Assembly: GCA_021298395.1 (NCBI GenBank)
Contig: JAJTFH010000007.1
Location: 31,980-95,979, forward strand
Direction: 5' to 3'
Length of the DNA stretch: 64,000 bases
Origin: Gemmatimonadota bacterium
GTDB taxonomy: Bacteria; Gemmatimonadota; Gemmatimonadetes; Gemmatimonadales; Gemmatimonadaceae
Below are positions 30,604-31,728 of the stretch, piece by piece. The position numbers and the translations under genes are program-made. Each line of letters opens with the position of its first letter. The stretch's first letter is position 1. A model generated the notes under the pieces. It was not told where the DNA came from. It saw only the letters and a program-made list of their open reading frames with translations, and ran no database searches.

Positions 30604-31728
30604 TTAGGCGAGGATCTTGGTCACCACGCCCGCACCGACGGTGCGGCCGCCCTCACGGATGGCGAAGCGGAGCTGCTCCTCCATCGCGATCGGGATGATG
30701 AGCTCGATCGTCATCTGCACGTTGTCGCCCGGCATCACCATCTCGGTCCCCGCGGGGAGCTCGATCGCACCGGTCACGTCGGTCGTGCGGAAGTAGAACT
30801 GCGGGCGGTAGCCCTTGAAGAACGGCGTGTGGCGGCCCCCCTCTTCCTTCGTGAGGACGTACACCTCGGCCAGGAACTTCGTATGCGGCTTGATCGAGCC
30901 CGGCTTGGCGAGCACCATGCCACGCTCGATGTCCTTCTTGTCGATGCCGCGGAGGAGGAGCCCGACGTTGTCGCCGGCAAAGCCCTCGTCGAGGAGCTTG
31001 CGGAACATCTCGACGCCCGTGACGATCGTCTTCTTGTCGGAGTTGTAGCCCACGAACTCGAGCTCCTCACCGACCTTGCACTTGCCGCGCTCGATACGGC
31101 CGGTCGCGACGGTGCCGCGGCCGGTGATCGAGAAGACGTCTTCGACCGGGAGGAGGAAGGGCTTGTCGATCTCGCGGACCGGCTCCGGGATGTACGTGTC
31201 GAGCGCGTCGTACAGCTCCTGGATCTTGTCGATCCACTTCTGGTCGCCCTCGATCGCGCGCACGGCGGCGCCACGGATCACCGGGGCGTTGTCGCCGTCG
31301 TAGCCGTACTTCGAGAGGAGCTCGCGGACCTCGAGCTCGACGAGGTCGAGGAGCTCGGCGTCCTCGACGAGGTCGCACTTGTTGAGGAAGACCACGATGC
31401 GGGGCACGTTCACCTGGCGGGCCAGGAGGATGTGCTCACGGGTCTGCGGCATCGGGCCGTCGACGGCCGACACCACGAGGATCGCGCCGTCCATCTGCGC
31501 GGCGCCCGTGATCATGGTCGCGATCGTGAGGATCTTGGTGGAGTCGCGACGCCCCTGCGACTCGGACGCCTTCGCGACCTCGTCATAGGCGATGTACTTG
31601 GTGCCGAACCCCTTGTCCGCCGAGATCTTGGTCAGGGCGGCCGTGGTGGTGGTCTTGCCGTGGTCGACGTGGCCGATGGTGCCCACGTTCACGTGCGGCT
31701 TGTTCCGCTCGAACTTTGCCTTGGCCAT
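30604..31728 (-). CDS. tuf: Elongation factor Tu lacking the G3 (DCPGH) segment
   Basis: 374 residues; EF-Tu is usually 393-400. G1 ([13 protein letters not shown]) and G4 (NKCD) are intact; the G5 region reads [10 protein letters not shown] rather than GSALxALEGD. Domains 2 and 3 look complete. Between ILTIAT and [12 protein letters not shown] the ~26 residues that normally carry HVEYET...[17 protein letters not shown] are missing; the DNA reads straight through at 31515/31516. The G3 motif and the catalytic His (E. coli His84) are therefore absent. EF-Tu brings aminoacyl-tRNA to the ribosome and depends on this segment, so this is either an in-frame deletion, an assembly error, or a specialised second copy. 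The stretch [18 protein letters not shown] before it replaces the usual switch I lead-in and may be lineage-specific. Confidence 0.93.

Follow-up and report, generated by a model that had tools for sequence, protein, structure and literature searches.

The tuf gene of the window, the whole stretch of 64,000 nucleotides that was analysed (G000:C57:31980-95979), is 78 nt short relative to all of its relatives, and we attribute this loss with high confidence to an error of assembly or of scaffold joining. In the organism itself, tuf is very probably an ordinary single-copy gene of full length. The assembly that contains the window measures 1.82 Mb in 76 contigs and is rated 100% complete, with 0.87% contamination.

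As assembled, tuf occupies positions 30604-31728 on the minus strand and encodes EF-Tu in 374 codons, as identified by the ORF call and by matches to TIGR00485, PF00009, PF03144, and PF03143. It has its usual place in the str operon, flanked by fusA and rpsJ. Both neighbours are intact. The fusA gene (EF-G; 31811-34078, minus strand) is a 755-residue ORF directly upstream, and contig C89 of the closest relative (G013) aligns through it without large gaps. The rpsJ gene (S10; 30234-30542, minus strand) is a 102-residue ORF directly downstream, and contig C51 of G013 aligns through it. In a profile search, the tuf ORF scored 613.9 bits against the TIGR00485 EF-Tu equivalog in two stretches, which is above the cut-off of 522.4 bits; an intact relative scored 703.7 bits in a single stretch. 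PF00009 was matched, and domains 2 and 3 (PF03144 and PF03143) were above their cut-offs. The 5′ part of the gene (codons 1-71; 31516-31728, minus strand) carries the G1 motif GHVDHGKT and a clade-specific switch I. The 3′ part (303 codons and the stop; 30604-31515, minus strand) carries the remaining G domain, with the G4 motif NKxD present as NKCDLVED, and domains 2 and 3. Residues 69-374 are 91-99% identical to EF-Tu of the same genus. The two parts meet at 31515/31516 on the minus strand as TIAT|MITG in the protein and as GCGACC|ATGATCAC in the DNA. The letters around the junction are GATCGCGACC|ATGATCACGGGC, with the ATG at about 31515.

In all 33 relatives whose tuf was read across this segment (for example, G010), exactly 26 residues separate TIxT from MITG. 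Every full-length relative has these residues, among them the single-contig genomes G012 and G105 and the three-contig genome G005. Thus, precisely 78 nt are lost, the frame is kept, and both ends of the loss fall on codon boundaries. An earlier note, made from the letters of the window, had described it as a clean in-frame loss, reasoning that 374 plus 26 residues gives about 400, and the group agrees with this arithmetic, as its full-length EF-Tu has 399-400 residues. The same note was right that the G3 motif is gone: neither the ORF nor any other part of the assembly contains DCPGHADY, which every full-length relative has. Its reading of G5 (GAAVRAI) as altered does not hold, since this form is ordinary for the clade, where full-length relatives have RGAAVKAI, RGAAIKAI, or RGSAIKAI. 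The exact junction TIAT|MITG was found in none of the 84,980 GTDB species genomes scanned (GTDB r220).

A search of the whole 1.82 Mb assembly for a second copy bore out the suspicion that this may be the only tuf. The next matches are GTPases at 33% identity, and the DCPGHAD pattern gave no exact EF-Tu match across the assembly. When the 78 nt of the closest relative were sought, the assembly held no counterpart (the best match covers 29 of 78 bases at 86%), and the missing stretch was not found on other contigs or at contig ends of the assembly. Cells cannot do without EF-Tu, whose nucleotide switch includes G3. On this established knowledge, a cell with a G3-less EF-Tu alone is not expected to live. 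As the protein is essential and an assembly rated 100% complete holds no full-length copy, a misjoin is the best reading of the deletion.

The absence of tufB, which had been regarded as suspicious, is normal for the genus. The single-contig genome G012 has one tuf and shares the Thr-Tyr-Gly-Thr tRNA cluster without tufB, and it aligns right through the flank. Every relative of the same genus that is well assembled has a single tuf, which lies in the str operon, and in G012 and G005 (one and three contigs, respectively) this gene is intact. These genomes weigh against the strongest of the alternatives, in which the deletion in this copy is real and a second, intact tuf was dropped from the assembly or bin through its similarity. 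Genes in two copies do easily drop out of assemblies, and two tuf genes are present in some members of the order (G037, G053, G057, G055, and G031). Yet, every well-assembled relative of the same genus has only the str-operon copy, G012 lacks tufB by the tRNA cluster, and no fragment of a second tuf occurs in the assembly; we consider a lost second copy very improbable. Four other genomes (G181, a single contig, and G029, G025, and G033) are near-complete and gave no full EF-Tu match, for which assembly loss, stretches absent from the searched sequence, or a limit of the search are possible reasons. A full-score EF-Tu was also not obtained from three of 10 bacterial control genomes, nor from the single-contig G181. 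The absence of tuf in relatives was therefore not relied on as a measure of assembly loss, as search losses are possible.

In four other assemblies of the phylum (G013, G025, G041, and G076), tuf has a break at the junction or no more than about 55 nt from it. In contig C12 of G041, which belongs to the same order, NN stands directly after ATGATCAC and is followed by GGCGC; the gene reads AAGAACATGATCAC-NN-GGCGCGGCG. In contig C9 of G076, from the same class, N(303) stands directly after ATGATCAC, and the gene reads GAAGAACATGATCAC-N(303)-GAAGAACATGATCACGGG. Both of these scaffold gaps lie at most 8 bases from the ATG that opens the right side of the window junction. Contig C51 of G013 begins 42 nt upstream of the junction ATG, and C89 ends within tuf. 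Contig C31 of G025 ends at HVDC, just upstream of the junction.

A wider GTDB scan for tuf genes with an altered codon just before the MITG stretch returned 15 loci; as it targeted that codon by design, it shows that such joins exist and gives no rate. Four unrelated GTDB drafts (L081, L087, L090, and L091) have NN directly before ATGATYAC or at most 3 bases before it, and two (L082 and L083) are misjoined at the Lys codon that precedes it. In L091, the left piece ends CCCCGGCCA and the right piece begins ATGATTAC, which is the same kind of loss as in the window, but marked by NN. A clean loss like that of the window was found at none of the 15 loci, which show only point changes at the Lys codon, NN joins, and chimeras. 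The assemblies of relatives often break at other places in tuf as well, and the gene thus has several weak points, of which the junction site is one. In three GTDB MAGs of Clostridia and Lachnospiraceae from ruminant guts (L084, L088, and L093), TAG replaces the Lys codon in VKNMITG (GTxTAGAACATGATC), and this appears to be an assembly artefact that recurs at this site.

The 31-mers of a relative's tuf are shared between species around the junction at a level among the highest in the gene. From the junction downstream, exact matches to two other congeneric species run for 78 and 114 nt. Near-identical stretches between species lead to tangled assembly graphs, and contigs would thus break before MITG. 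Contig C57, which contains the window, has a 22-N gap at 3236-3257, the only one in the roughly 480 kb of assembly sequence that was inspected. This gap means that a scaffolding step was used and that the contig is a scaffold. For metagenome assemblies, local errors that corrupt protein-coding genes are recognised, and scaffold joins at overlapping ends have been described (PMC7111523). We infer that contigs would have broken at MITG because the conserved core of tuf is near-identical in co-occurring species, and that a right contig starting with ATGATCAC may then have been joined to a left contig ending in TIAT, with the bases between them dropped.

Some observations count against an artefact. 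A codon-exact, in-frame join is expected in about 1 in 9 cases for a random break, and no N was left at the junction. The 5′ part of tuf differs from contig C89 of G013 by three synonymous and three nonsynonymous codons, slightly more protein change than in the 3′ part; these numbers are tiny, and the nonsynonymous excess is too small to mean much. The 3′ part has 98% nucleotide identity to contig C51, with 21 synonymous codon differences and one nonsynonymous difference. This pattern shows strong constraint, as in a working gene, and counts in favour of an artefact. In the approximately 13 kb aligned to G013, no other loss comparable to the 78 nt was found; the largest other coding indel measures 15 nt and falls in the 3′ end of ORF 28560-29393. 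We also considered a deletion by recombination between direct repeats and rejected it, since the two ends have a single base in common and no repeat.

The two contigs of G013 (C89 and C51; L034 and L035) have overlapping ends inside tuf that disagree at 15 positions over 113 codons. This suggests a strain mixture, an unresolved assembly, or two tuf copies in that genome. Taken as a sign that strain mixtures occur in the group, the overlap lends something to a second alternative, in which a minority strain, from a dying or mixed lineage, carries the deletion and the assembler chose that path. We judge it very improbable: a strain whose only EF-Tu lacks G3 should not survive and would not be expected at the depth needed for assembly, and the ends of the deletion have just one base in common, with no repeat to explain it. 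It is just as doubtful that the deletion is real and the organism lives with, or also carries, a G3-less EF-Tu, for example as a GTP-locked regulator beside an intact EF-Tu that the assembly missed. If true, the deletion would contradict the need for G3 in a cell's only EF-Tu. The literature searched contained no report of an EF-Tu with such a deletion. A genuine specialised EF-Tu-like protein that binds GTP without hydrolysis and functions as the sole copy would fit the open frame and the conserved other domains, but it has next to no credibility, as it would be the cell's only EF-Tu in a normal str operon, shares its loss with no relative, and, judging from EF-Tu structures, would have lost strands beside the nucleotide site. 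Among the options that the earlier note had left standing, an assembly collapse is thus favoured by the recurrent breaks and the sole tuf, and the specialised EF-Tu found no support, with its junction in no relative and no second tuf for elongation.

The switch I region of this EF-Tu is a separate matter. RGITIxT is near-universal in EF-Tu switch I. In the clade of the window, the region is rewritten, and SQGRRD[ASP][TS]KILTIAT replaces ERGITI.T (QGRRDxTKILTI vs. RGITI). The rewritten form spans about codons 50-71 of the window tuf, within 31516-31728, and is also found in P0001/L009 and in most relatives. It is about five residues longer than the region in EF-Tu of solved structures. Of 298 genomes sampled from the whole phylum, a pattern scan identified it in 98, almost all from the order of the window; the standard RGITI is kept by others in these families and classes. 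Both forms together were found in no genome in two pattern scans. The rewritten switch I is real and occurs in full-length genes of many species. Two loci, L096 (G125) and L103 (G076), belong to one genus of another family of the class (f5/g68) and have the QGRRD type, while G069, also of f5, has RGITI; tuf transfer or misplaced taxonomy are possible reasons for this mixture. No paper describing the rewritten switch I was found in the literature searched, and it may deserve a separate study and more attention than the deletion.

The most conserved stretch of tuf is a place where draft and metagenome assemblies break repeatedly. Joining contigs there can produce an open frame that resembles a remarkable deletion, and the frame alone is no evidence of a real gene. 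Compared with EF-Tu as defined by TIGR00485, the gene of the window has the same position in the str operon and the same domains, but its ORF is without the 26 residues that include G3 (DCPGHAD). Compared with the errors and misjoins of draft assemblies (PMC7111523), it is alike in breaking at a near-identical, cross-species stretch, and the site is the same as that of the joins in G041, G076, L087, L090, and L091. Those joins are marked by NN or N(303), whereas the junction in the window carries no N, and its frame was kept by chance.
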